Shown piece after piece: positions 10,674 through 23,901 of a DNA stretch of 64,000 nucleotides. Source of the DNA: Aquibium carbonis (lineage in GTDB: Bacteria; Pseudomonadota; Alphaproteobacteria; Rhizobiales; Rhizobiaceae); assembly GCF_003970795.1 (NCBI RefSeq), contig NZ_RWKW01000031.1:62001-126000 (forward strand), read 5' to 3'. The notes beneath the pieces were generated by a model. That model worked only from the letters and a program-made list of their open reading frames with translations, was not told where the DNA came from and searched no databases. Position 1 is the stretch's first letter; the number at the start of each line of letters is the position of its first letter. The translations under genes and the position numbers were made by a program.

Positions 10674-11306
10674 TTACAGATCGACCGGCGCCGCGGCCAT
10701 CTCGCCGGCAGAGCGGATTGCCGCGACCAGAGCTTCGCCGGCCTGTTCGATCGGTCCGTCATTGACGATCGACGTGACCGCGCCGCTGACACCGTCCGCA
10801 CCGGCGGCCGCGCGGGCAAGCCTTGCCGACACCTCGTCCGCGCTTTCGCGGCCGCGCGCCATCAGCCGCTTTGCCAGCGTTTCGGGGCTTGCGGTGATGG
10901 CCACCACGAGGACATGGCGATAGCGCACCTTGAGCGCCGGAAGAGCCGCCCGCGACAGGTTGGCGACGACGGTGTGACCGGCTGCGATCTGTCGATCGAC
11001 GCTCGCCGGCAATCCATAGTGCAGACCGTGCGCGTCCCATGACAGGGAAAAGGCCCCGCCCGCCCGCGCATGTTCGAAAGCCTCGGGCGACAGCGAATCA
11101 TGATCCTCCGTCGAACCGTCGGCCGCGCGCGTGATCACCCGGCGCACGAAATGCACCGGCGCGCGCTCGTCGGCGCCCAGCCGCGCCTTGGCATAGGCGA
11201 TCAGCGTGTCCTTGCCGACCCCGCTCGGGCCGACGATCGCCACGAACGCGCCCTGGCGTTCCCGCTGGTCGCGGCTTCTCGGCTTCACCTCCAGCTGCGT
11301 TTCCAT
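10674..11306 (-). CDS. phnN: Ribose 1,5-bisphosphate phosphokinase PhnN
   Basis: A 210-residue P-loop kinase of the guanylate kinase-like group. Walker A is GPSGVGKD, followed by FVRRVITRAADGSTEDHDSLS and LSWDAHGLHYGLP, the GMP-kinase-like substrate lid. PhnN phosphorylates ribose 1,5-bisphosphate to PRPP, the last step of C-P lyase phosphonate use. The start at 11306 is chosen because its ATG overlaps the phnM stop in ATGA, giving METQLEVKPRSR; the longer version would run into phnM. It is the last gene of the phosphonate locus on this strand. Confidence 0.92.
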   Translation of the reverse strand: METQLEVKPRSRDQRERQGAFVAIVGPSGVGKDTLIAYAKARLGADERAPVHFVRRVITRAADGSTEDHDSLSPEAFEHARAGGAFSLSWDAHGLHYGLPASVDRQIAAGHTVVANLSRAALPALKVRYRHVLVVAITASPETLAKRLMARGRESADEVSARLARAAAGADGVSGAVTSIVNDGPIEQAGEALVAAIRSAGEMAAAPVDL

Positions 11307-12445
11307 CAGGCCACGCGGCGGCCTTCGCGCCAAACGGAGCGGACCACCGGAATGTGCTCGTCCACGCGCACGCGCACGAGATCGGCCCGTTTGCCCACGG
11401 CGATCTCGCCGCGATCGGTCAGCCCGGTCGCCGCCGCCGGGTTCTTCGAAACCATCGCCACGGCCTGCGGCAGCGAGACTGAATCCACCACGTCGCCCAG
11501 GAAGAAAGCCGACTGGATGAGGCTGTAGGGGATGTAGTCCGATGACAGGATGTCGAGGCAGCCATGTTCGGCCAGTTCGCGCGCCGAGACGTTGCCCGAA
11601 TGCGATCCGCCGCGCACGACGTTCGGCGCGCCCATCAGAACGCCCATGCCGGCACGCTTGGAGGCGGACGCCGCCGCCAGCGTGGTCGGGAACTCGGCCA
11701 CCTTGATCCCTTGCTCGATCGCCTCGTCGACATGCGCTGTCGTTGCGTCGTCATGGCTGGCGAGCACGATGCCGCGCTCCTGGCAGGCTTGCGAGATCGC
11801 CATGCGATTGCGGCGCGAGTTGCGATCCGACTGGGCGATGCGCGTTTCGCAGAAGCGGATGAATTCCTCATCCGTCAGTTTCAGCTTACGCTGATAATAG
11901 TGGGAATAGGTCTCCAGATTGACGAACTGCCGTTGTCCCGGCGCGTGGTCCATCAGCGAGGCGAGCCTGACGCGGGCATCGCCATCGAAATGGGCGAAGC
12001 CGTCCAGGCAATCATCGGCCGAGACCTCGCAGCGAAGGTGAATGAAGTGGTCGGCGCGCAGCCGGTCCTTGGCGACGCCGTCCTCGATCGCGTCTGCGAG
12101 CTTGCGCATGTCCTGCGCCGTGATCTCCGGATCTTCGTCCATGCCGACGCGCAGGGCGTCGAAGACGGTGGTGATACCCGACGTCGCCACCTGCGCGTCA
12201 TGGGCCAGCACGGCGGCGAGCGGGTTCCAGCGCACTTTCGGCCGAGGGGCATAGTGGCCTTCCAGATGGTCGGTGTGCAGTTCCACCAGCCCGGGGATCA
12301 GGTAGTCGCCGCCGAGATCCTCGCCATGGCGCGTGGCACCCGGTGAGACGTCGGAGATCAGCCCGTCGCGGATGGCGACCGAGCCCTCGACGATCTCGTC
12401 GGCGAGCACGATGCGGGCGTTGGTGAAGATGAGGTCGGTCGACAT
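11306..12445 (-). CDS. phnM: Alpha-D-ribose 1-methylphosphonate 5-triphosphate diphosphatase PhnM
   Basis: A 379-residue amidohydrolase-fold enzyme. It removes pyrophosphate from the PhnGHI product to give ribose 1-methylphosphonate 5-phosphate, the PhnJ substrate. The metal-binding start is GLVELHTDHLEGHYAPRP. Later landmarks are HFIHLRCEVSADD, IVLASHDDATTAHV and SSDYIPYSLIQSAF, all typical of PhnM. The ATG at 12445 begins MSTDLIFTNARIVLADE. One base separates it from the DUF1045 gene and it overlaps phnN by four bases, so the last three genes of this strand form a tight unit. Confidence 0.95.
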   Translation of the reverse strand: MSTDLIFTNARIVLADEIVEGSVAIRDGLISDVSPGATRHGEDLGGDYLIPGLVELHTDHLEGHYAPRPKVRWNPLAAVLAHDAQVATSGITTVFDALRVGMDEDPEITAQDMRKLADAIEDGVAKDRLRADHFIHLRCEVSADDCLDGFAHFDGDARVRLASLMDHAPGQRQFVNLETYSHYYQRKLKLTDEEFIRFCETRIAQSDRNSRRNRMAISQACQERGIVLASHDDATTAHVDEAIEQGIKVAEFPTTLAAASASKRAGMGVLMGAPNVVRGGSHSGNVSARELAEHGCLDILSSDYIPYSLIQSAFFLGDVVDSVSLPQAVAMVSKNPAAATGLTDRGEIAVGKRADLVRVRVDEHIPVVRSVWREGRRVA

Positions 12446-12446
12446 G

Positions 12447-13154
12447 TCATGCGATCTTTCGTTGCGGCATCCGCCCGAGCGCGCGGTGCGCAAGGACGGT
12501 GAAGGGTGCGCCGGGCTCGGGCTCGACGAACAGCGCGATCGAGCCGACGACCAGAGGCTCGTCGAGCAGCGATCCGAAGTGGCTCTCGATCGCGCCGCGC
12601 AGCCGGTCCGCGTCCGCTGCCGGCACCTGGCCGGACAGGGTCATGTGAAAGCGGAAAGCCTCGAACACGTATGGATAGCCCCATTGCTGCAGATATTTGA
12701 GCTCGGCGGGCTTCAGTTTGCCGGGGTTGCGCCGCGCGAGATCAGACTCCGACATCGGGGCGCGAAAGCGGTCGAACGCAACCACGATGTCGCTTGCCAG
12801 CCGGTCGAGGGGCTCGCTGCGCTGTGCTGGCGTGAGAGCGAAGAAGCGGTCGATCTGCGACAGCCGAACCTGTGGCAGCACCACCGGCTCGACGGCTTCG
12901 GCGAAGGTATCGAAAGCCGTGAGCAGGCTGTTCTCCGTCTCGATTCCTGCCAGTTCGAAAGGCGCCTTCAAGGTGGCGTGAAAGCCGTATCGGCGGGCGG
13001 AGGCGGTGAAGTAGGCCAGTTCCTCGCGCGACAGGTCGGCCATGTCTGGCCGCTCGACCGCCAACCCCGTGAAAACGTCGCGGCCGAGCCACCGTGCCGC
13101 GGCGGACGTCATCGGGTCACCCTTCGGGGGCGTGAAATAAATGGCGTATCGCAT
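12447..13154 (-). CDS. DUF1045 phosphonate-operon protein, 2H phosphoesterase-like
   Basis: A 235-residue protein of the family found in many alphaproteobacterial phn clusters (TIGR03223/DUF1045). It carries two H-x-T motifs: His59-Ala-Thr61 in YGFHATLKAPF and His170-Met-Thr172 in FRFHMTLSGQV. This is the hallmark of 2H phosphoesterases, which open cyclic phosphates. The locus has no phnP, the usual enzyme for 5-phosphoribosyl 1,2-cyclic phosphate, and this gene lies directly before phnM and phnN. A cyclic phosphodiesterase role is therefore a reasonable inference, not shown. The ATG at 13154 begins MRYAIYFTPP; a longer in-frame start lacks similarity to the family N-terminus. Confidence 0.85.
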   Translation of the reverse strand: MRYAIYFTPPKGDPMTSAAARWLGRDVFTGLAVERPDMADLSREELAYFTASARRYGFHATLKAPFELAGIETENSLLTAFDTFAEAVEPVVLPQVRLSQIDRFFALTPAQRSEPLDRLASDIVVAFDRFRAPMSESDLARRNPGKLKPAELKYLQQWGYPYVFEAFRFHMTLSGQVPAADADRLRGAIESHFGSLLDEPLVVGSIALFVEPEPGAPFTVLAHRALGRMPQRKIA

Positions 13155-13317: not shown

Positions 13318-14673
13318 TCAGAGGGCGGCCGGGTTCGTCGTGCGGCCAATCAGCTTCTGTCGCAGCCAGCCCGAAACGATGTCCATGGTGCTGACCATCA
13401 GCAGCGTCAGGATGATGTAGTAGCTGACCTCCTCCCAATCCTTCTGCGTCTGGATCGCCTGGGTCAACAGCAGGCCGATGCCGCCGCCAACGATGGCGCC
13501 GATGATCGTCGCGCTGCGGGTATTGGATTCCAGGTAATAGAGCACCTGGCTCAGGATCACCGGCGCAACCTGCGGGATGACGCCGAAGCGGTTGCGCTGG
13601 ATCGCATTGGCGCCTGTCGAGCGCAGGCCGTCGATCTGCTTGTTGTCGACGTTTTCCAGCGCTTCCGAAAACAGCTTGCCGAAGGAGCCGGTGTCGGTGA
13701 GCAGGATCGCCAGCGATCCCGTCAACGGGCCCGGGCCGAAGGCGCGCGACAGGATGATCGTCCAGATCAGCCCGTCCACGCCGCGCAGGAAGTCGAACAG
13801 CCGGCGGATGCCGAAACGCACCAGAAAGCTCGGCGAAAAGTTGATGGCCGCCGCGAAGGCGAGGGGAAAGGCGACCAGCATGGCGCCCATCGTGCCGAGA
13901 AACGCCATCAGCACGGTTTCGAAGATCGCCCAGACGACATCCTTGTGTCGCCACATCTCGTTGTTCCAGAAATCGGATGCCATGGCGCCGATGTTGGACT
14001 GGCCGGGCCGGACCTGGTCGCCGCTGACTGCGAGGCTGGCGAGTTCGCCCCAGGACTTGCCGGCGAACGGGCTGTCGAGCGTGAAGAAGAACAGTTCCCA
14101 CCCGGCGAAGTATCGCAACGCCTCGGTGCGGTTGCGGGTGACAGAGACGCGTCCTGCGGCCCGGTTGATCGAGACGCGTGTGTTCGAGGCATTGATCCAG
14201 TCGGGCAGCGGGCCTTGCGGCGTGTCGAGCACGATGCCGTCGTCGGTCCGGCGGATCGACACGAGCCCGTAGCCCGGAACGTCGTAACGCACCGCGCCCG
14301 GGTCGAAGCGGACGATCTCGCCGCCGCCGAGTTCGACCACCACCGACTGGCCGTCCCGCTGAACCCAGTCGGGCCACGCGTCGTCGGCATACTTGCCCTT
14401 GTTCTCGCCCTCGATAGCCACGCTCGTCTCGCCCGAGCGGTTGTCCTGCGACACGTGGACCTTGTGGCTGTAGGTGTCGGCGAGCAGGATTCTGGCGTTG
14501 TCCATCCGCGCCCGCTCGGCGAGGCCCGGAATGTCGAAGGCGAAGAACACGTAGACGAAGTAGGCGAGGATGATGGCGGGCACGCCGAAGGCGACAAGCC
14601 GCTTGCGGCGGAAGAGGCCCACGGCCGTCGCGCGGGTCCGTGCTGGATCATAGCCGATGTCGGCGACAGCCAT
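13318..14673 (-). CDS. phnE: Phosphonate ABC transporter permease PhnE (second)
   Basis: A 451-residue inner-membrane permease. After a first membrane helix (LVAFGVPAIILAYFVYVFFA, about 30-50) comes a long soluble stretch of roughly 190 residues. The MetI-like permease domain follows (VVWAIFETVLMAFLGTMGAM onward), with the EAA-type loop near GANAIQRNRFGVIPQVAP. The other PhnE has no such insert. It pairs with PhnC and PhnD for import of phosphonates or phosphate esters. The ATG overlaps the stop of the preceding phnE in ATGA at 14673, which fixes the start. Confidence 0.92.
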   Translation of the reverse strand: MAVADIGYDPARTRATAVGLFRRKRLVAFGVPAIILAYFVYVFFAFDIPGLAERARMDNARILLADTYSHKVHVSQDNRSGETSVAIEGENKGKYADDAWPDWVQRDGQSVVVELGGGEIVRFDPGAVRYDVPGYGLVSIRRTDDGIVLDTPQGPLPDWINASNTRVSINRAAGRVSVTRNRTEALRYFAGWELFFFTLDSPFAGKSWGELASLAVSGDQVRPGQSNIGAMASDFWNNEMWRHKDVVWAIFETVLMAFLGTMGAMLVAFPLAFAAAINFSPSFLVRFGIRRLFDFLRGVDGLIWTIILSRAFGPGPLTGSLAILLTDTGSFGKLFSEALENVDNKQIDGLRSTGANAIQRNRFGVIPQVAPVILSQVLYYLESNTRSATIIGAIVGGGIGLLLTQAIQTQKDWEEVSYYIILTLLMVSTMDIVSGWLRQKLIGRTTNPAAL

Positions 14674-15533
14674 CAGAACCCCCTCACGAGCTTGTTGCGG
14701 AAGTGGCTCGATGTCTGGTCGATCACCACGATTGTCAGGAAGAGCAGGATAAAGATTGCAGCCGCCGCGTCGTAGCGGCCGGTCCCCCAGGAGATGGCGA
14801 TGCGCAGTTCCGATCCGATGCCGCCCGCGCCGACGAAGCCCAGGATGGCCGAGGCACGCACATTGATCTCGAACCGCAGCAGCGCATAGGATAGATAGTT
14901 GGGCGCGACCTGCGGCATCACGCCGAGCCACATGCGCTGCAGCCAGGAGGCGCCGACAGACGTCAGGCCCTCGACCGGCTTCAGGTCGGCGTTTTCGTTG
15001 ACTTCGGAAAACAGTTTGCCCAGCGCGCCCGCCGTGTGGAAGGTGATGGCGATCATGGCCGGCACCGGTCCACCGCCGAGAATGAAGATCAGCACCAGCG
15101 CGATCACCACCTCGGGCAGGGCGCGCATGACGTCCATCGCGCGGCGGAAGACGCCGATCAGGCGGGGCCAGCGCGCCAGCCCGCGCGTGGAAAGAAGAGA
15201 CAGCAGGATGGCGAAAATCGCACCGATGAGCGTCGAGACGGCGGCGATGTTGATGGTTTCGACCAACGCAGGGAAATACATGGCCAGATTGCCGGGAAGC
15301 GCCGCCGACTTCTCGAACGCCTCCTTGATCAGTTCGGCCGGGAAATCGAAGATGCGGCTGAGGCCGGACCAGAAGCCGCCTGCGTTGCGGCTGTCGGCGA
15401 GATCGAACCCGGCCGCGAGCATGGCGACGAAGACGATGAGGACGATGCCGGAGTAAATGCGCTTGCGCTGCACCATGGCCATATAGCCGGCCTTGATGTT
15501 GTCGACCGGTGCGCCGATCGTCAGATTCGCCAT
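14673..15533 (-). CDS. phnE: Phosphonate ABC transporter permease PhnE (first)
   Basis: A 286-residue permease of normal PhnE length. Six or so membrane segments are visible, including IYSGIVLIVFVAMLAAGF, VSTLIGAIFAILLSLL and AIFILLFLTIVVI. The conserved loop GASWLQRMWLGVMPQVAPNY contacts the ATPase PhnC. It is encoded between phnD and the second phnE, with which it probably forms a heterodimeric channel. A 12-bp hairpin in the gap after phnD (15556-15583) may lower transcription from here on relative to phnD. Confidence 0.94.
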   Translation of the reverse strand: MANLTIGAPVDNIKAGYMAMVQRKRIYSGIVLIVFVAMLAAGFDLADSRNAGGFWSGLSRIFDFPAELIKEAFEKSAALPGNLAMYFPALVETINIAAVSTLIGAIFAILLSLLSTRGLARWPRLIGVFRRAMDVMRALPEVVIALVLIFILGGGPVPAMIAITFHTAGALGKLFSEVNENADLKPVEGLTSVGASWLQRMWLGVMPQVAPNYLSYALLRFEINVRASAILGFVGAGGIGSELRIAISWGTGRYDAAAAIFILLFLTIVVIDQTSSHFRNKLVRGF

Positions 15534-15597: not shown

Positions 15598-16503
15598 TCA
15601 GTTGGTCTGTGCTTTGCGCAGGTCGATCATGGTCTGGTAAGCGTCGTGCGCGATCGGCATGAAGCCTGCTGTCTCGCCAGCGGCCATCTTGTAGGCGCAG
15701 TCCTTGTCCTTGGCGTGCAGGCCCTTCAGGAAGTCGACCATTTGGGTCTTCACGTCCGCAGGCAGCGCCTTGCGCAGCACGATCGGGCCCTCCGGGATCG
15801 GCTTCGACTTCCAGATCTCGACGATGTCGTTCATGTCGACGATGCCGGAGTCGACGGCCTTGCGCAGCGCGCCCGAATTGTATCCGTCTTCCCAGTCACC
15901 CTGGCCATCGGCCCAGGTCACGCCGGCATCCACGTCGCCATTGACGACCGCGACGATGGTCTGCTCATGGCCGCCGGTGAAGACGACCTCGCCGAAGTAG
16001 GCGCCGTTTTCCATGGTCGCGCCGGTTTCCTGCGGGATCTCGACGGCGGGAATCAGATAGCCCGAGGTCGAGTTCGGGTCGCCGAAACCGAACTTCTTGC
16101 CCTTCATGTCGGCCAGCGAGGTGATGCCGCTGTCCGTGCGGGCAAAGCCGATCGAATGATAGGCGAAGGAACCGTCGAGGTTGGTCTTGACCAGCACGAC
16201 GTCGACCGCTTCCGGGTCCGTCAGGTAGGTCTTGGCGTAGGCCGATGCGCCGAGCCAGGCCATGTCGATCGTGCCGCCGAGAAGGCCCTGAATCACGCCG
16301 TCATAATCGGCCGGGGTGAAGATCTTGGTCGGTACGCCGAGCAGTTCCTCGGTATAGGCGCGAACGCACTCGTTCGAGGTCATGCGGTCCTGGGCGTTCT
16401 CGCCGCCGAGGATGCCGATGCGGAATTCGCTGATCTTGTCCTGGGCCAGGGCCGGGGCGGCCAGGGCGGCAGTCGCGAGCAGCGCTGCGAGCAGTTTCTT
16501 CAT
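15598..16503 (-). CDS. phnD: Phosphonate ABC transporter substrate-binding protein PhnD
   Basis: A 301-residue periplasmic binding protein with signal peptide MKKLLAALLATAALAAPALA. Its body has EFRIGILGGENAQDR, GVIQGLLGGTIDMAWLGASAYAK and FGDPNSTSGYLIPA, which line the phosphonate pocket in PhnD proteins. VTWADGQGDW is a further family landmark. It delivers the ligand to the two PhnE proteins. Ligand range (2-aminoethylphosphonate, methylphosphonate, phosphite) cannot be read from sequence. It is the second gene after the Pho box at 17444-17461. Confidence 0.95.
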   Translation of the reverse strand: MKKLLAALLATAALAAPALAQDKISEFRIGILGGENAQDRMTSNECVRAYTEELLGVPTKIFTPADYDGVIQGLLGGTIDMAWLGASAYAKTYLTDPEAVDVVLVKTNLDGSFAYHSIGFARTDSGITSLADMKGKKFGFGDPNSTSGYLIPAVEIPQETGATMENGAYFGEVVFTGGHEQTIVAVVNGDVDAGVTWADGQGDWEDGYNSGALRKAVDSGIVDMNDIVEIWKSKPIPEGPIVLRKALPADVKTQMVDFLKGLHAKDKDCAYKMAAGETAGFMPIAHDAYQTMIDLRKAQTN

Positions 16504-16558: not shown

Positions 16559-17377
16559 TCAAAGCGCGTAGGCGGGCTCGAGCGAGGGGGTCGGGCGCGA
16601 CAGGCTTTCGATGGACGTGGACGTGGCTTCCTCGGAGAAGCTCTCGTCGGCGCCGTAAATCTCGCGCGCGGCCGACGTGGTCAGGTCCTCGGGCAGGCCG
16701 TCGAACACGATCTCGCCGCCGCGCATCCCGATGACCCGGTCGCAATAGCGGCGCGCGGTGTCGAGCGTATGCAGGTTGCACACGATCATGCGGCCGTCCT
16801 CGTCGTGGATCTTGCGCAGCGCGTCCATCACCACCTGCGCGTTCATCGGGTCGAGCGAGGCGATGGGTTCGTCGGCGAGGATGATCTTGGGGTCCTGCAT
16901 CAGCGCGCGCGCGATCGCCACGCGCTGCTGCTGGCCGCCCGACAGCGCCTCCACGCGCTTCTGCGCATGATCGGCGATCCCCAGCCGCTCCAGGATGTCG
17001 ATCGCCTGGTGGATATCGTCGCGAGGAAAGAGGTTGAGCACGGTGCTCATGGTCGAGCGACGGTTCAGCGTCCCATGAAGCACATTCGAAACAACATCGA
17101 GGCGTGGCACGAGGTTGAACTGCTGGAAGATCATGGCGCAGTCGCGTTGCCAGGAGCGCAGTGCCGAGCCGTTCAGTGCAGAGACTTCGGTGCCGCCGAA
17201 GATGATCTTGCCTTCGGACGGATCGATCAACCGGTTGATCATACGCAGCAGCGTGGACTTTCCGGCGCCGGACCGGCCAATGATCCCCACCATCTGGCCT
17301 TCGGGAATGCGGACCTGGACGTTCTTCACGGCGACGTTGGCGCCGAAGCGGCGTGTCACCTTCTGGATCTCGAGCAT
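16559..17377 (-). CDS. phnC: Phosphonate ABC transporter ATP-binding protein PhnC
   Basis: A 272-residue ABC ATPase. Walker [10 protein letters not shown]-loop IFQQFNLV, signature LSGGQQQR, Walker B IILADEP and switch histidine CNLHTLD are all in order. [16 protein letters not shown] is typical of PhnC. The C-terminal 30 residues ([14 protein letters not shown] onward) extend beyond the usual PhnC length. It is the first gene of the transport operon. A Pho box lies 67-84 bases before its start, on the same strand. Confidence 0.95.
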
Positions 17378-17556: not shown

Positions 17557-18171
17557 CTACCCTTCGTGTTTCTCCAGAAACGCCTCCGCCGATAGCGTCC
17601 TGAAATCGTCGAGCGCGGCTCCCAGGCGGTCGTGACTCCAGTCCCACCAGCCGAGCGCCTGGTAACGTTCGGCCGTGCACTTGTCGAAGCGCTGGCGGAT
17701 CGGCCGCGCCGGCACGCCTCCGACGATGGTATAGGGCGCGACATCCCTGGACACGACCGCGCCGGCGCCGATCACCGCCCCGTCTCCCACGGTGACGCCG
17801 GGCAGAATCGTCGCGCCATGTCCGAGCCAGGTATCGTGGCCGATCGTCACCTTGTGGTCCCGTCGCCAGCCGAAGAAGGCGTCGTCATTCTCTGCGGCGG
17901 GCCAATAATCAGCCGAGCGGTAGGTGAAATGGTGCAGTGTCGGTCGCCAGGTCGGATGGTTGGTGGCGTTGATGCGGCAGGCGGCGGCGATGTTGGCGAA
18001 TTTGCCGATCTGCGCGCACCACGCCGAGCCGTCCCGCATGATGTAGGAGTAATCGCCGAAGGTGGTGTCGGTGATCTGGCAGCGCTCGGCGATCTCGGTA
18101 TACCGCCCCAGCGTCGAGTTAGAGACCTCCGCTGTCGGGTGGATGAGCGGCTCGGGAGACAGCCTGGTCAT
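17557..18171 (-). CDS. Phosphonate-locus hexapeptide-repeat acyltransferase
   Basis: A 204-residue left-handed beta-helix transferase of the DapH/LacA type that occurs in phn operons (TIGR03308 group). Hexapeptide turns include [29 protein letters not shown], cited here as a region near residues 130-158. [15 protein letters not shown] carries the active-site His region of xenobiotic acetyltransferases. It could acetylate aminoalkylphosphonates, the job done by PhnO in enterobacteria, but that is inference. The ATG at 18171 overlaps the phnL stop in ATGA. It closes the phnG-L operon; a 179-base gap with a Pho box follows before phnC. Confidence 0.88.
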
Positions 18172-18878
18172 GCCGCCACCTTCTTCGGTGCGAAGCGGGT
18201 GACGTCGATGACCGCGTCGGCCACCGCCTCGCGTACGTCCTGATCGTGAAAGATGCCGAGCAGGGCGACGCCGGCCTGCTTCTTCTCGGCGATCAGATCG
18301 ATGACGACCTGGCGATTCACCGCATCGAGCGACGCCGTCGGCTCGTCGAGCAGCAGGATCGGGTGACTGGTGATGAAGCCGCGCGCGATGTTGACGCGCT
18401 GCTGTTCGCCGCCCGAGAAGGTCGCGGGTGGCAGGGACCACAAGGTCTTCGGCAGGTTCAGCCGGGCAAGAAGGGCGGCTGCGCTGTCGCGTGCCGCCTC
18501 GCGGTCCGCACCCGCCGTGGTCAGCGGTTCGGCCACGACGTCGAGGGCCGACACGCGCGGCACCGTGCGCAGGAACTGGCTGACATAGCCGATCGTTTCG
18601 CGCCGCACCGACAGCACTACGCGCGGCGCTGCGCGGGCGATGTCGACGAGCATGCCGCGATGCTGCACGATGATCTGGCCGGTGTCGACGCTGTAGTTGC
18701 CGTAGAGCATCTTCAGGATGGAGCTCTTGCCGGCGCCCGACGGGCCGCCGAGCACGGCACATTCGCCGGCTCTCAGCGAGAAGGAAACGTCGTCGACGAC
18801 CGGCAGCTTCAGCCCACCGCGCAGATGCATTGTGAAGCCCTTGGCGACTTCGGATACGACGAGGGGAGTGGCCATCAT
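18168..18878 (-). CDS. phnL: Phosphonate C-P lyase system protein PhnL
   Basis: A 236-residue ABC-type ATPase of the C-P lyase machinery. Walker A is [10 protein letters not shown], the signature FSGGEQQR, and Walker [13 protein letters not shown]. PhnL is needed for phosphonate use in vivo and in E. coli binds with PhnK to the PhnGHIJ core. It is not a transporter subunit. Two ATG codons stand in tandem. The first (18878) overlaps the phnK stop in ATGA and is taken as the start. Confidence 0.94.
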
Positions 18879-19678
18879 CACACCTGCAGGATCGAGGAAA
18901 CGAGCAATTGCGTATAGGCTTCGCGCGGATCGTCGAGCACGCGGTCGGTCAGGCCGGTCTCGATCACGCGGCCGTCCTTCATCACCATCATGCGGTGCGA
19001 TAGAAGCCGCGCGACGGCCAAGTCGTGCGTGACCACGATCGCCGCCAGCCCGAGATCGGCCACCAGCCCGCGCAGGAGGTCGAGCAGCCGCGCCTGCACC
19101 GAGACGTCCAGCCCGCCGGTCGGCTCGTCCATGAACACCAGCCTGGGCGACGTGACGAGGTTGCGGGCGATCTGCAAACGCTGGCGCATGCCGCCCGAAA
19201 AGGCGCGGGGCTCGTCGTCGATGCGGTCGGCGCCGATTTCGACCCGACCGAGCCAGTCGATCGCGGTCGAGCGGATGTTGCCGTAGTGACGGTCGCCCAC
19301 CGCCATCAGCCGTTCGCCGACGTTCGCGCCGGCCGAGACGGTCATCCGCAGGCCGTCGGCCGGGTTCTGGTGCACGAAGCCCCAGTCCGTGCGCATCAGG
19401 AATCGCCGCTCGGCCTCGCTCATGCGGTAGAGTTCGCGCCACGTATGGTCGCGCATGCGGTAGGACACCGTGCCCGACGTCGGCATCAGCCGCGACGAGA
19501 TGCAGTTGAGCAGCGTCGTCTTGCCGGAGCCGGATTCGCCAACCACCGCCAGTACTTCGCCGGGCCACAGCTCGAAGGAAACGTCCTCGCAGCCGGTGCG
19601 CGCGCCGTAGGACTTGGAGACGGAGGAGACGCGCAGCAGGGGCGTGTCGTCCGCCGGTGAAGAAACCGTAACGCTCAT
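18878..19678 (-). CDS. phnK: Phosphonate C-P lyase system protein PhnK
   Basis: A 266-residue ABC-type ATPase that docks on PhnJ in the C-P lyase core. Walker [10 protein letters not shown], signature FSGGMRQR, and Walker [14 protein letters not shown] are intact. [14 protein letters not shown], after the Q-loop, is typical of PhnK. Start [13 protein letters not shown] at 19678 overlaps the phnJ stop by four bases; the longer frame reads into phnJ and is rejected. It works with PhnL downstream. Confidence 0.95.
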
Positions 19679-20562
19679 CGCACCGCCTCCAGGCCGTCCA
19701 CCGCCATGCCGAGTTCGCCGACATGTCCCGCCTCGCGCCGCTTCTCGCAGAAGTCGGTGTCGGAGCAGACGAACATCCGCCCGCCGCGATCGTCGAGGAT
19801 CACCTCGTCGAGATAGACCTGCTCGGCGCCGCACAGCGCGCAGGGCTTTTCGAACCTCTGCACCTCGAACGGATGGTCCTCGAAGTCGAGGCTCACGACG
19901 CTGGTGTGAGGCGGGATGGCGTAGATCCGCTGCTCGCGGCCGGCCCCGAAAAGCTGCAAGGCCGCCGACATGTGCATCTTCGGATTGTCGAACTTCGGCG
20001 TCGGCGACGGGTCCATCACGTAGCGCCCTTCCACCTTCACCGGATAGGCATAGGTCGTGGCGATGTGGCCGTTGCGGGCGATGTCCTCGTAGAGCTTCAC
20101 GTGCATCAGCCCGTACTCCTCCAGCGCGTGCATCTTGCGCGTCTCGGTCTCGCGCGGTTCCAGGAAGCGCAGCGGCTCGGGAATCGGCACCTGGTAGACG
20201 AGCGTCTGGCCCTCGCTGAGCGGATGCTCGGGGATGCGGTGGCGGGTCTGGATGATCGTCGCCCGGGCCGTGTCCGTGGTGGTTTCCACGTCCGCCACCT
20301 TGCGGAAGAAGGCGCGGATCGACACTGCGTTGGTGGTGTCGTCGGCGCCCTGGTCGATGACCTTGAGCACGTCGTCGGGACCGATGATCGAGGCCGTTAC
20401 CTGCACGCCGCCCGTGCCCCAGCCATAGGGCATCGGCATTTCGCGACTGGCGAAGGGCACCTGATAGCCCGGGATCGCGATACCCTTGAGAATCGCGCGC
20501 CGGATCATGCGCTTCGTCTGCTCGTCCAGATAGGCGAAGTTGTATGTGGCGATATCGCTCAT
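19675..20562 (-). CDS. phnJ: Alpha-D-ribose 1-methylphosphonate 5-phosphate C-P lyase PhnJ
   Basis: A 295-residue radical-SAM enzyme that breaks the carbon-phosphorus bond. The four conserved cysteines are at the exact E. coli positions: Cys241, Cys244, Cys266 and Cys272 (CALC and CSDTDFC). Three bind the [4Fe-4S] cluster and one, Cys272, is the thiyl-radical residue. N-terminal blocks GYQVPFASREMPMPYGWGTG are standard. The reaction yields alkane and 5-phosphoribosyl 1,2-cyclic phosphate. A 276-base gap to phnI holds a small opposite-strand frame, unusual for an otherwise overlapping operon. Confidence 0.97.
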   Translation of the reverse strand: MSDIATYNFAYLDEQTKRMIRRAILKGIAIPGYQVPFASREMPMPYGWGTGGVQVTASIIGPDDVLKVIDQGADDTTNAVSIRAFFRKVADVETTTDTARATIIQTRHRIPEHPLSEGQTLVYQVPIPEPLRFLEPRETETRKMHALEEYGLMHVKLYEDIARNGHIATTYAYPVKVEGRYVMDPSPTPKFDNPKMHMSAALQLFGAGREQRIYAIPPHTSVVSLDFEDHPFEVQRFEKPCALCGAEQVYLDEVILDDRGGRMFVCSDTDFCEKRREAGHVGELGMAVDGLEAVR

Positions 20563-20838: not shown

Positions 20839-21945
20839 TCATTCGGCCGCTTCCTTGCGCTCGGCGGAGGCCCCCCGCCGCTCGTCGAATTCCGTGCGCA
20901 TCTGGCGCACCAATCCAAGCTCGGCCTGGAAGTCGACATAGTGCGGCAGCTTCAGGTGCTCCACGAAGCCCGTTGCCTGCACGTTGTCGGAATGGGCGAT
21001 GACGAATTCCTGGTCCTGCGCCGGCGCGACGATGTCCTCGCCGAACTCGGCGGCCCTCAAGGCCCGGTCGCATAGCGACATCGCCATCGCCTTGCGCTCG
21101 GACTGGCCCATCACCAGCCCGTAACCCCGGGTGAACTGCGGCGGCGCCTTCATCGATCCCTTGAACTGGTTGACCATCTGGCACTCGGTCACGCGGATCC
21201 GGCCCAGGGGGACGGCGAAAGGCAGTTCGGGCACGTCGAGCTCGACGTCGACTTCGCCGATGCGGATCTCGCCGACGAAGGGATGCGTGCGGCCGAAGCC
21301 GCGCTGCGTCGAATAGGCGAGCGCCAGCAGGAAACCTTCGTCGCCGCGCGACAGCGCCTGCAGCCGTACATCGCGATCCATCGGGTACTCGGCCGGCTGG
21401 CGCGTGATATCGCCGGGCTCCGTGCCGGCCCCCGCAGCGCCGTCGGGCTCGATCAGACCTTCCTGCGCCAGGATCTCGGTCACGCGCGGCATCGGCTCGG
21501 GCGCCTCCGGTCGGACGGCCGGTGCCTCGACCGGTGCGTCGCCGGCCAGTTCCGGATCGAGGAGCCGGTGGGTGTAGTCGAAGGTCGGGCCAAGCAGCTG
21601 TCCGCCCGGCAGGTCCTTGTAGGTTGCCGATACGCGCCGCTCCACTAGCATCGCGCCGGTCTCCACCGGGCGCGAATAGCCGAAGCGCGGCAAGGTGGTG
21701 CGGTAGGCGCGGGTTAGGAAAATCGCCTCGATCATGTCCCCGCGGGCCTGGCGTATCGCGAGGGCCGCCAGTTCACGGTCGTAAAGCGAACCTTCCGCCA
21801 TGACGCGGTCGACGGCGAGCGCCAGCTGTTCGACGATCTGGTCGAGCCTCAGCGCCGGAACGTCGCGGTCGCCACGGCGGCGGTCGGCGAGCAGGCGATG
21901 CGCGTTGTCGATGGCGACCTCGCCGCCCTTTACGGCAACATACAT
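20839..21945 (-). CDS. phnI: C-P lyase core protein PhnI
   Basis: A 368-residue core subunit. PhnI, with PhnG, PhnH and PhnL, transfers methylphosphonate to the ribose of ATP with loss of adenine, giving ribose 1-methylphosphonate 5-triphosphate. Diagnostic segments are MYVAVKGGEVAIDNAHRLL at the start, LARAYRTTLPR-like AIFLTRAYRTTLPRFGY, and RGFGRTHPFVGEIRIGEV. NQFKGSMKAPPQFTRGYGLV and VEHLKLPHYVDFQAELGLVR complete the match. The start lies three bases after the phnH stop. Confidence 0.96.
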   Translation of the reverse strand: MYVAVKGGEVAIDNAHRLLADRRRGDRDVPALRLDQIVEQLALAVDRVMAEGSLYDRELAALAIRQARGDMIEAIFLTRAYRTTLPRFGYSRPVETGAMLVERRVSATYKDLPGGQLLGPTFDYTHRLLDPELAGDAPVEAPAVRPEAPEPMPRVTEILAQEGLIEPDGAAGAGTEPGDITRQPAEYPMDRDVRLQALSRGDEGFLLALAYSTQRGFGRTHPFVGEIRIGEVDVELDVPELPFAVPLGRIRVTECQMVNQFKGSMKAPPQFTRGYGLVMGQSERKAMAMSLCDRALRAAEFGEDIVAPAQDQEFVIAHSDNVQATGFVEHLKLPHYVDFQAELGLVRQMRTEFDERRGASAERKEAAE

Positions 21946-21948
21946 GGC

Positions 21949-22566
21949 TCAAGCCTCCGTTTCGAAGATGCGCGTGGTGCGCGGCAGACAGGAGATCGCG
22001 TCGGGCGCGGCCAGGATCAGGTCGACGCCCCGCGGGAACCGGGCCCGGTTCTGCTTCCACTGGGCAGCGAAATGGCGCGGCAGCGGAAACGGCGAAAGCG
22101 CCGCAGACGTCTCGATCCCAGGCCCTTCGAGATGGAGTTCGCGCCCCTTGGTGAGCGTGTCGACCTGCAGGATCAGCGTCGTCGACCGGTCGGGATATTC
22201 CTGCGATCCCTGAGCGAAGTTCTCCAGCGCCATCAGTTCGCCGGGGCTGCTTGCAAGAACGAAATGCGCGTCGGCCGGAATGGTCGTCAGCGGCGCACCG
22301 CAGTGAAAGCCGAGCCAGCCGCGGACGTCGGTCGATACGTCGAGCCGGGCGTCCAGCCAGAGCGGCGTGTCGTGGTCGCACAAGGTGAGAGCCACGGAAG
22401 CGGCGGTCGACGTCAGCGGTGCCGGTGGCAGGGCCAAGGCCGCGACGGGGTGCACGGTCCCGGGGCGCGCCATGGCGTCCATCAACGCACGAAACACGGC
22501 CTGCGCGGCCAGGGGCGGATTCTGGAAGCCGCCCTCGATGGGCGTCGTGGTCAGGAAGCCGTTCAT
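21949..22566 (-). CDS. phnH: C-P lyase core protein PhnH
   Basis: A 205-residue PLP-transferase-like-fold protein without catalytic activity of its own, part of the PhnGHIJ core. It has the family start GGFQNPPLAAQAVFRALMDAMARPG, the central SPGELMALENFAQGSQEYPDRSTTLILQV, cited here as two adjacent blocks near residues 108-136, and NRARFPRGVDLILAAPDAI at the end. The ATG at 22566 begins MNGFLTTTPIEGG. It lies one base after the phnG stop and is translated with phnG and phnI. Confidence 0.95.
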   Translation of the reverse strand: MNGFLTTTPIEGGFQNPPLAAQAVFRALMDAMARPGTVHPVAALALPPAPLTSTAASVALTLCDHDTPLWLDARLDVSTDVRGWLGFHCGAPLTTIPADAHFVLASSPGELMALENFAQGSQEYPDRSTTLILQVDTLTKGRELHLEGPGIETSAALSPFPLPRHFAAQWKQNRARFPRGVDLILAAPDAISCLPRTTRIFETEA

Positions 22567-22567
22567 C

Positions 22568-23047
22568 TCAATCCTCTCCGCGCACCATGGTGAAGAAGTC
22601 GACCCGGGTCGCCGCGGTTTCGGCGCGCTGCTGCGCCTCGGCCTGCGCCGCCCTGGCGGCCAGAGGCAGGATGATCCGTTCCTCGACGGTCGCGCGCATG
22701 TCGGCGCGCTGCCACAGCGCGTCGATCGTTGCCGACAAGGTCGCCTTCTCGCGGTCGCGACCGAGGGCATAGGCATGCCCGATCTCGCCGGTCGCGAGTC
22801 GAACCGTAGCGCGCGTCACCGTCGCTTCGCCGAAGTTGAACGGTGCACCGCCGCCGCCCATGCGCCCGCGCAGCGTCACCAGGCCGGTTTCGGGGCCGCG
22901 CAAGGTCCTGGCCTCCACACATATCCCGGCCTCTCGCCAGAGGGCCCGGAGGTCTTCGGCCGGCGCGGCGGAAAGGGCCGCCATCGCAGCCTTGCGTCGG
23001 GCGTTTTCTTCCTGATCGCGCGAGCGATCCCTCGGGGCGCTGGCCAT
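22568..23047 (-). CDS. phnG: C-P lyase core protein PhnG
   Basis: A 159-residue core subunit. FNFGEATVTRATVRLATGEIGHAYALGR is the diagnostic block (near residues 79-106), with the active-site-like GEATVTRA. The start is set at ATG 23047, beginning MASAPRDRSRD, because GGAGA stands 9-13 bases before it. The frame can be extended to a TTG at 23095, but that would overlap the PhnF-type palindrome. First gene of the phnGHIJKL unit. Its promoter region holds a Pho box and the palindrome. Confidence 0.93.
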   Translation of the reverse strand: MASAPRDRSRDQEENARRKAAMAALSAAPAEDLRALWREAGICVEARTLRGPETGLVTLRGRMGGGGAPFNFGEATVTRATVRLATGEIGHAYALGRDREKATLSATIDALWQRADMRATVEERIILPLAARAAQAEAQQRAETAATRVDFFTMVRGED

Positions 23048-23077
23048 GCTGCGGGTCTCCGCTTGTTCTTTCAATTC

Positions 23078-23093
23078 GTCTATTGATATAGAC
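23078..23093. promoter_or_regulatory. Probable PhnF operator between phnG and phnF
   Basis: GTCTATTGATATAGAC is a perfect 6-4-6 palindrome. It is followed at 23094-23108 by the AACTATACA/AACTATAC direct repeat. HutC-type GntR regulators such as PhnF bind GTxTA-like palindromes. The site lies 31 bases before phnG and 65 bases before phnF, so it could control both directions. The AT-rich composition contrasts with the flanking coding DNA. Confidence 0.65.
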
Positions 23094-23129
23094 AACTATA
23101 CAAACTATACGTTTTCCTATTCCCTGTCC

Positions 23130-23157: not shown

Positions 23158-23901
23158 ATGGCCGTGAAGGCCGCGACGACCATGGACCGAAGGACGGGTG
23201 TCGCCCTGTGGCGGCAGATCGCCGACCGAATCCGCCAGGGCATCGCAGCGGGCGAGTTCGGCGAAGGCGGGCGGCTGCCGCCGGAAACGGCGCTGGCCGA
23301 ACGTTTCGGCGTCAACCGCCACACCGTGCGCGGCGCCATTGCCGCGCTCGTGCAGGAGGGCGTGCTGCGGGCCGAGCAGGGCCGCGGCACCTTCGTCGAG
23401 CGTCGCAAGCGGCTGTCCTATCCGATTGCCCGGCGCACGCGCTTTTCAGAAGGATTGCGCGACCAGGCGCAGGATCGCCGGGGGCATCTGCTTGGCGAGA
23501 CCCGCGAGGATGCGGATACCCGCGTGGCCGAGGCGCTCGGGCTCCAGCCCGGCGCGCCCGTCTTGCGCGTCGAAACGATGAGCGAGGCCGACGGCCGTCC
23601 GGTTTCGTGCGCAACGAGCTGGTTCGACGCGGCGCGCTTTGCCGGCATGGGCGAGGCCATCGCCGAGACCGGCTCGGTCACGCTCGCCTATCGCCGCCAT
23701 GGCGTGGAGGATTATTTCCGTCAGTCGACCACCGTTTCGGCCCGGCACGCCGACGTCGGCGACCTGGCCGCGCTGAAGCTGGCGCCTGGCGCAATCGTCC
23801 TCGTTGCGCTGGCGGTGAACGTCGACGTCGAGGGCCGGCCGATCCAGTTTTCCGAGACGCGCTTCGCCGCCGATCGCGTCGAACTGGCGGTGGCCGAATA
23901 G
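23158..23901 (+). CDS. phnF: Phosphonate locus GntR-family regulator PhnF
   Basis: A 247-residue GntR regulator of the HutC subfamily. The winged helix at about 10-78 includes WRQIADRIRQGIAAGEF, LPPETALAERFGVNRHTVRGA and VLRAEQGRGTFV. A UTRA ligand-binding domain follows (LRVETMSEADGRPVSCATSWF and later HADVGDLAALKLAPGA). PhnF usually represses the C-P lyase genes until the proper ligand is present. It is divergent from phnG, with a GTCTAT-N4-ATAGAC palindrome between them. The ATG at 23158 has ACAGGAG at 23144-23150. Confidence 0.93.
   Translation: MAVKAATTMDRRTGVALWRQIADRIRQGIAAGEFGEGGRLPPETALAERFGVNRHTVRGAIAALVQEGVLRAEQGRGTFVERRKRLSYPIARRTRFSEGLRDQAQDRRGHLLGETREDADTRVAEALGLQPGAPVLRVETMSEADGRPVSCATSWFDAARFAGMGEAIAETGSVTLAYRRHGVEDYFRQSTTVSARHADVGDLAALKLAPGAIVLVALAVNVDVEGRPIQFSETRFAADRVELAVAE

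Follow-up and report, generated by a model that had tools for sequence, protein, structure and literature searches.

A DUF1045 protein with a predicted 2H phosphoesterase fold as the probable stand-in for PhnP in the C-P lyase locus of Aquibium carbonis

C-P lyase provides phosphorus to soil and ocean bacteria, takes part in the breakdown of glyphosate and yields methane from methylphosphonate. In E. coli, according to the available part of the published account, phnP mutants accumulate ribosyl 1,2-cyclic phosphate and cannot make phosphonate phosphorus usable (PMC3463581). The phn locus considered here lies in a stretch of 64,000 nucleotides of the Aquibium carbonis genome (hereafter, the window) and raises the question of how the cyclic phosphate is opened in this bacterium, as a sequence-only reading of the window had found no phnP in the locus. 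Our searches likewise gave no phnP match within it. The same reading had pointed to a DUF1045 protein as a possible replacement.

The locus begins with a divergent phnF-like regulator gene on the plus strand (23158..23901), which has an equal place in related loci. The other genes follow on the minus strand in the order phnG-H-I-J-K-L, an acyltransferase-like gene, phnC-D-E-E, the DUF1045 gene, phnM and phnN. The open reading frames of phnI (20839..21945) and phnH (21949..22566) match annotated PhnI and PhnH, respectively, and that of phnG (22568..23095) lies ahead of phnH, a position conserved among related loci. The C-P lyase gene itself, phnJ (19675..20562), is matched by PF06007 with 494 bits (G000:C120:81732-82547, i.e., window positions 19732-20547), and is followed by phnK (18878..19678; TIGR02323, 404 bits) and phnL (18168..18875; TIGR02324, 331 bits). 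The product of the hexapeptide-repeat acyltransferase-like gene (17557..18171) matches annotated DapH/DapD/GlmU-related genes in other phn loci; relatives are annotated in those of Thermus, Halorientalis and Mesobacillus. The phnC product (16559..17377) matches phosphonate ABC ATPases annotated on named plasmids. Profile matches identify phnD (15598..16503), the second phnE (14673..15533) and phnM (11306..12445; ribosyl phosphonate 5-triphosphate diphosphatase), and the other phnE is a long reading frame (13318..14931) with a PhnE match over residues 299-527. The DUF1045 gene stands directly before phnM and phnN, as first read from the sequence: a single base separates its stop codon from the phnM start, and phnN (10674..11333; ribose 1,5-bisphosphokinase; TIGR02322, 213 bits) comes next. 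As in the window, DUF1045 adjoins phnM on pSymB of S. meliloti and, by report in the accessible portion of PMC8235418, in Aminobacter.

The DUF1045 gene occupies positions 12447..13154 of the minus strand, exactly as originally placed, and its bases translate into 235 residues followed by a stop codon. The opposite (plus) strand of this segment is likewise open, antisense frames being common in this window of 67% G+C. The DUF1045 frame is not a product of chance, since its protein exceeds the cut-offs of both TIGR03223 ("putative phosphonate metabolism protein"; 273.4 bits versus 248.95, residues 1-228 on profile positions 1-228) and PF06299 (DUF1045; 197.7 bits versus 24.3). It is a full-length protein with no notable difference from the family, and the best protein match found (86% identity) is from Aquibium sp. 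ELW1220. The profile of the 2'-5' RNA ligase superfamily (PF13563) is barely passed, at 27.4 versus a cut-off of 27. Among the NCBIfam profiles, TIGR03223 was the sole match at E up to 0.001, so that the protein falls outside both the PhnP model (TIGR03307) and the PhnPP model (NF041661). It may work like PhnP, yet it is not a member of the PhnP family. A scan of viral contigs, made to see whether phages are carriers, gave no relative.

An AlphaFold2 model of the protein, calculated with 42 sequences (mean pLDDT 89.5, pTM 0.84), was compared with known structures. It aligns with YjcG (Z 15.5, rmsd 3.1, 165 aligned), the Arabidopsis protein 1jh6 (Z 14.5, rmsd 3.1, 167 aligned) and E. coli LigT (Z 13.4), and trypanosomatid mitoribosomal chains also came within E 0.001. 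In the predicted model the fold is that of a 2H phosphoesterase, and the protein carries the two H-x-(T/S) motifs of this superfamily; residues 59, 61, 170 and 172 are H, T, H and T, in agreement with the motifs initially noted. His59, Thr61 and His170 are invariant in 84 of 84 aligned rows, and residue 172 is Thr in 82 and Ser in two (in this alignment, contig-end reading frames and those outside 190-300 residues, such as L038 and the G554 fragments, were left out, and two genes are counted twice: L017 = L089 and L057 = L106). Arg2, Tyr56, Pro65, Arg131, Gly159 and Tyr160 are also invariant in the 84 rows. A second alignment of 42 closer rows retains all of these residues except Tyr160, which is nearly invariant there and was consequently dropped from the fully invariant set. 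A sequence search of the PDB found no DUF1045 structure. According to the part of the source available, the Arabidopsis protein shares with DUF1045 the fold, the 2H class and the ring and bond to be broken (the DUF1045 side being predicted), whereas the two are only 13% identical over the aligned part and differ in length (181 versus 235 residues).

Could a phnP gene reside elsewhere in the genome? The source assembly (5.34 Mb in 188 contigs, given as 100% complete) contains none above the TIGR03307 cut-off. Its sole PhnP-like match (51 bits versus 272) is a beta-lactamase-fold gene with a Lactamase_B_2 domain on contig G000:C163, which is not the phn contig; the genes ahead of it are presumably metG and tatD, recognised by sequence. 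Matches below the TIGR03307 cut-off (E up to 0.001) were also present in 10 control genomes without PhnJ, including Caulobacter. This candidate was rejected because of its low score and the similar matches in the PhnJ-negative controls, and by the TIGR03307 test the genome thus lacks phnP.

We then assessed the distribution of the two enzymes. In the first survey (385 alphaproteobacterial genomes), PhnJ was found in 65 genomes and DUF1045 over the cut-off in 80, and PhnP passed its cut-off in none of the 65. DUF1045 accompanies PhnJ in 64 of these 65 genomes, compared to 16 of the 320 PhnJ-negative ones; the 64 include G259, in which DUF1045 occurs only as a diverged SAR11 protein (49.8 bits) on a contig other than that of the phn locus. 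The two genes are at most 15 kb apart in 50 of the 64 genomes having both. A second survey of 398 Pseudomonadota genomes revealed PhnJ in 83, of which 73 were not in the first survey; 52 of these 73 contain DUF1045 and 19 contain PhnP. The check proposed at the outset, namely whether phn loci with DUF1045 lack phnP across genomes, came out in favour of the replacement: among 138 PhnJ-positive Pseudomonadota, 116 have DUF1045, 19 have PhnP, none has both and three (G161, G720 and G723) have neither (Fisher 1.5e-20, a value that ignores the kinship of the genomes, the sample being weighted towards the Alphaproteobacteria, the class of the window). The TIGR03307 cut-off was passed by none of the 113 PhnJ-positive alphaproteobacteria. 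Outside this class, the corresponding numbers are 4, 19, 0 and 2 of 25 genomes (Fisher 0.0012, kinship again ignored), and the four DUF1045 genomes represent two families.

Individual loci show the same alternation. Within family f193, the DUF1045 gene of G605 overlaps phnN, and in G713 it is the PhnP match that overlaps the phnN match. On named plasmids of Marinobacter and Methylibium, phnP follows phnN and no DUF1045 is annotated. In the 80 loci closest to the window (the best 80 of 580 and hence skewed to near kin), DUF1045 and phnM are no more than 1 kb apart in 74 and the fetched stretch includes phnN in 68; a PhnP query from gammaproteobacteria matched none. G443 contains three PhnJ genes and three DUF1045 genes. 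In Paracoccus (L190 7748-10181) and likewise in several genomes of family f25, DUF1045 is found between phnM and phnN on the opposite strand. In G011, a calcineurin-like phosphoesterase gene adjoins phnF (L101 6168-6950), and a different contig carries the DUF1045 gene next to phnM. A diverged PhnJ is encoded at three alphaproteobacterial plasmid loci, and the stretch read of each is annotated with neither DUF1045 nor phnP.

The company of PhnN bears on the product of the reaction. A PhnN match (E up to 1e-15) occurs in 26 of 31 sampled genomes with PhnJ and DUF1045, i.e., in 22 of 27 alphaproteobacteria (hand-picked, mostly one per family; in large genomes, the first look scored only 36 candidates) and in all four outside the class; the match of G605 is under the family cut-off. 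It also occurs in all 19 genomes with PhnP, and is absent from all 12 PhnJ-positive Pelagibacterales that have neither DUF1045 nor PhnP in the phn locus. Since PhnN accompanies both DUF1045 and PhnP and is absent from these Pelagibacterales, the product of DUF1045 should be a substrate of PhnN, and ribose 1,5-bisphosphate would be the likeliest one. G720 and G723 contain PhnJ and PhnN with neither PhnP nor DUF1045, and are probably natural phnP losses. At the G723 locus (L073), tandem repeats occupy the site that holds phnP in its congener G539, and a phnP remnant was rejected there on this account; at the G720 phn locus (L072), nothing recognisable as a remnant was seen. Some strains may therefore manage without the step or carry it out by other means.

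The idea that a 2H protein (RcsF/DUF1045) replaces PhnP is already in print as a proposal, from 2009 by a review's account and from 2013. The available text of that review (PMC10574752, citing Podzelinska 2009, JBC) gives phnP in 27 of 54 phnM operons and rcsF, a 2H phosphodiesterase, in the 16 without phnP. In the portion of PMC3840354 at hand, a Rhodobacteraceae fosmid with the 2H gene "rcsF" and no phnP enabled E. coli delta-phnHIJKLMNOP to grow on methylphosphonate, and rcsF was proposed as the phnP replacement. DUF1045 appears as the proposed phosphoribosyl cyclic phosphodiesterase in an excerpt of PMC8235418, after Hove-Jensen 2014 (MMBR). Probably, rcsF is the same as DUF1045, because the place given for rcsF, with phnM and phnNL, in the accessible part of PMC5649143 is that of DUF1045 in Paracoccus. 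As partially available, PMC10132767 lists the Phaeobacter DUF1045 protein as increased under phosphate stress along with PhnI, PhnJ and PhnL; PhnM is listed with P 0.28. An excerpt of PMC8774927 assigns phnP, by KEGG number, to seven Marivita genomes, and a housekeeping beta-lactamase-fold gene may explain these calls. The literature searched yielded neither a direct enzyme assay of DUF1045 nor a non-enzymatic PRPP route.

Both genome tests, the predicted fold, the invariant catalytic residues and the fosmid complementation (as described in the available part of PMC3840354) uphold the role originally suggested. We consider it very likely that the DUF1045 protein acts as a 2H phosphoesterase in place of PhnP and opens the ring to ribose 1,5-bisphosphate; it is probably a phosphoribosyl 1,2-cyclic phosphate phosphodiesterase. 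We infer the substrate, the bond broken, the product and what each residue does as follows. PhnJ releases 5-phosphoribosyl 1,2-cyclic phosphate (PRcP). In DUF1045, the two histidines would act as general acid and base and the two threonines would hold the phosphate, such that water would be added to the ring and the O2-P bond would break, leaving ribose 1,5-bisphosphate. PhnN, encoded two genes on, would then turn this product into PRPP. The conserved Arg2 and Arg131, outside the 2H motif, might, as a guess, hold the 5-phosphate.

DUF1045 and E. coli PhnP (TIGR03307) would thereby share a predicted reaction and a place in the pathway, and they are mutually exclusive in the survey. Unlike DUF1045, PhnP has a metallo-beta-lactamase fold. 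A further unrelated family, PhnPP (NF041661; phosphoribosyl 1,2-cyclic phosphate 1,2-diphosphodiesterase, PHP family), has the same predicted substrate. The phn locus of the Bacillota species Mesobacillus foraminis codes for a PHP-domain protein akin to PhnPP (L196 4074-4952; 252 bits versus a cut-off of 500) and, unlike most DUF1045 loci, has no annotated phnN.

Alternatively, the housekeeping beta-lactamase-fold protein on G000:C163 might open PRcP, and DUF1045 would then trim a side product, e.g., ribosyl 1,2-cyclic phosphate or 2',3'-cyclic nucleotides. The genome gave no other PhnP-like match, the protein has the Lactamase_B_2 domain, and each of the 65 PhnJ-positive alphaproteobacteria contains some match below the TIGR03307 cut-off; but its score is far from the cut-off and the PhnJ-negative controls have such matches as well. 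This explanation would also leave unaccounted for the concentration of DUF1045 in PhnJ-positive genomes and its exclusion with PhnP, and the fosmid functioned in E. coli without phnP (available part of PMC3840354), all of which makes it very improbable. Still less credence can be given to the possibility that DUF1045, in the manner of PhnPP from the PHP family, cleaves both ester bonds and yields ribose 5-phosphate and phosphate with PhnN bypassed. The five of 27 sampled alphaproteobacteria in which PhnN was not found would fit such a reaction, whereas its presence in the other 22, in all four genomes outside the class and in 68 of the best 80 of 580 loci would not; moreover, the 2H reactions that one published account names end at a monoester.

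A main role of DUF1045 outside the C-P lyase pathway, e.g., on another cyclic phosphate, with later recruitment to phn loci, is compatible with the PhnP role and seems unlikely, if less so than the two preceding alternatives. It would account for the 16 genomes that have DUF1045 without PhnJ, in none of which PhnN was found, and for the diverged SAR11 branch, whose members come from both PhnJ-positive and PhnJ-negative genomes. On the other hand, of the nine lone rows not from SAR11, seven share branches with phn-linked rows, as leftovers would (some branches are weakly supported and the root is arbitrary), and five of the 16 lone copies are still beside phnM or a phnN-like piece. Since these 16 of 320 PhnJ-negative genomes keep DUF1045, the family either does something else too or lingers. 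In the 16 loci (L074-L089), phnM is beside DUF1045 in four and a phnN-like piece in one, and no phnF-N gene was seen beside it in the other 11; an acyltransferase-like piece is present in one of these. The phnN-like piece, in G281, scored 48 bits and was not reported by the genome PhnN search. Repair of PRPP damage by a lone DUF1045 followed by PhnN is unlikely, given the lack of PhnN matches in all 16 genomes. The SAR11 rows form their own long branch in the tree; these diverged DUF1045-like proteins of 205-206 residues (L075 9460-10080, L088 9618-10235 and L096 9677-10294) are each preceded by the gene of a similar, probably membrane, protein of 318 residues.

A PF01261 TIM-barrel protein is encoded in a series of C-P lyase loci (L071 17970-18857, L070 13166-14068, L188 12648-13457, L193, L194, L195 and L200-L209), of SAR11-type bacteria and haloarchaea among others, in which phnN, phnP and a phn-linked DUF1045 are all missing. 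In G161 and G259, it is found near phnJ (the proteins being 44-46% alike) together with a phosphatase, calcineurin-like in G161 and of the HAD type in G259. In an order survey of 150 Pelagibacterales genomes, PhnJ was present in 12 and the TIM barrel (E 1e-30) in 22: all 12 PhnJ-positive genomes contain it, compared to 10 of the 138 PhnJ-negative ones (Fisher 3.8e-12, kinship ignored). In the former, the two genes are always on one contig and at most 10 kb apart. Window and gammaproteobacterial queries detected phnN, DUF1045 and phnP in none of the stretches read of the 12 loci. All three f33 loci have a HAD match upstream of phnG, on the opposite strand, and a calcineurin-like match, one of them weak, occurs in eight of the nine f143 loci, the ninth of which begins inside phnI. 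Because a DUF1045-like match exists elsewhere in the genomes of G259 and G746 (diverged) and of G798 (sub-threshold), a trans-acting DUF1045 may operate in these three.

In haloarchaeal phn loci, the TIM-barrel gene directly follows phnM in the four loci read (a partly circular count, as three were found via the TIM-barrel protein itself), and two have a HAD gene; the PhnJ listing has just two haloarchaeal rows (H54 and H58), and both belong to these four. On Thermus pVV8, the TIM-barrel gene is further off and accompanied by a metallophosphoesterase. The nearest named family is CbiR, a cobamide remodelling phosphodiesterase, for which three haloarchaeal proteins score 67-81 bits and that of G161 scores 33, versus a cut-off of 105. 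The haloarchaeal proteins also match deoxyribonuclease IV and sugar epimerases (35-48 bits), and those of G259 and Thermus match deoxyribonuclease IV models only (19-20 bits). A profile search of the PDB, with a profile that includes the Thermus protein, returned TTHB071 of Thermus and MJ1311 first, followed by sugar epimerases and endonuclease IV. On the basis of the CbiR, endonuclease IV and epimerase matches, the TIM-barrel protein is likely a phosphodiesterase, or possibly an isomerase. Its invariant residues are H71, H109, E152, D186, H189, H216 and E272, which we take to resemble the metal ligands of endonuclease IV. In SAR11 and haloarchaeal loci without phnN, the TIM barrel would open the ring and a HAD or calcineurin-like phosphatase, often encoded next to it, would release phosphate, without the formation of PRPP. 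Among the literature matches listed, there was no earlier report of such a protein ("sugar phosphate isomerase", CbiR or endonuclease IV) in C-P lyase. The chances seem about even that at least four unrelated enzymes meet the cyclic phosphate in C-P lyase loci: PhnP, DUF1045, PhnPP and the TIM barrel related to CbiR and endonuclease IV.

Most PhnJ-positive genomes sampled, in a sample heavy in the class of the window, have DUF1045 and not the textbook PhnP. It would therefore be misleading to call such pathways incomplete, or to call a housekeeping beta-lactamase-fold gene phnP. The DUF1045 replacement itself has already been proposed in print; what deserves to be pursued is the wider pattern, together with the TIM-barrel lead. 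In this pattern, several unrelated enzymes would serve a single step and two of them would be followed by PhnN, so that how the pathway ends in SAR11 and haloarchaea becomes a question that can be tested.
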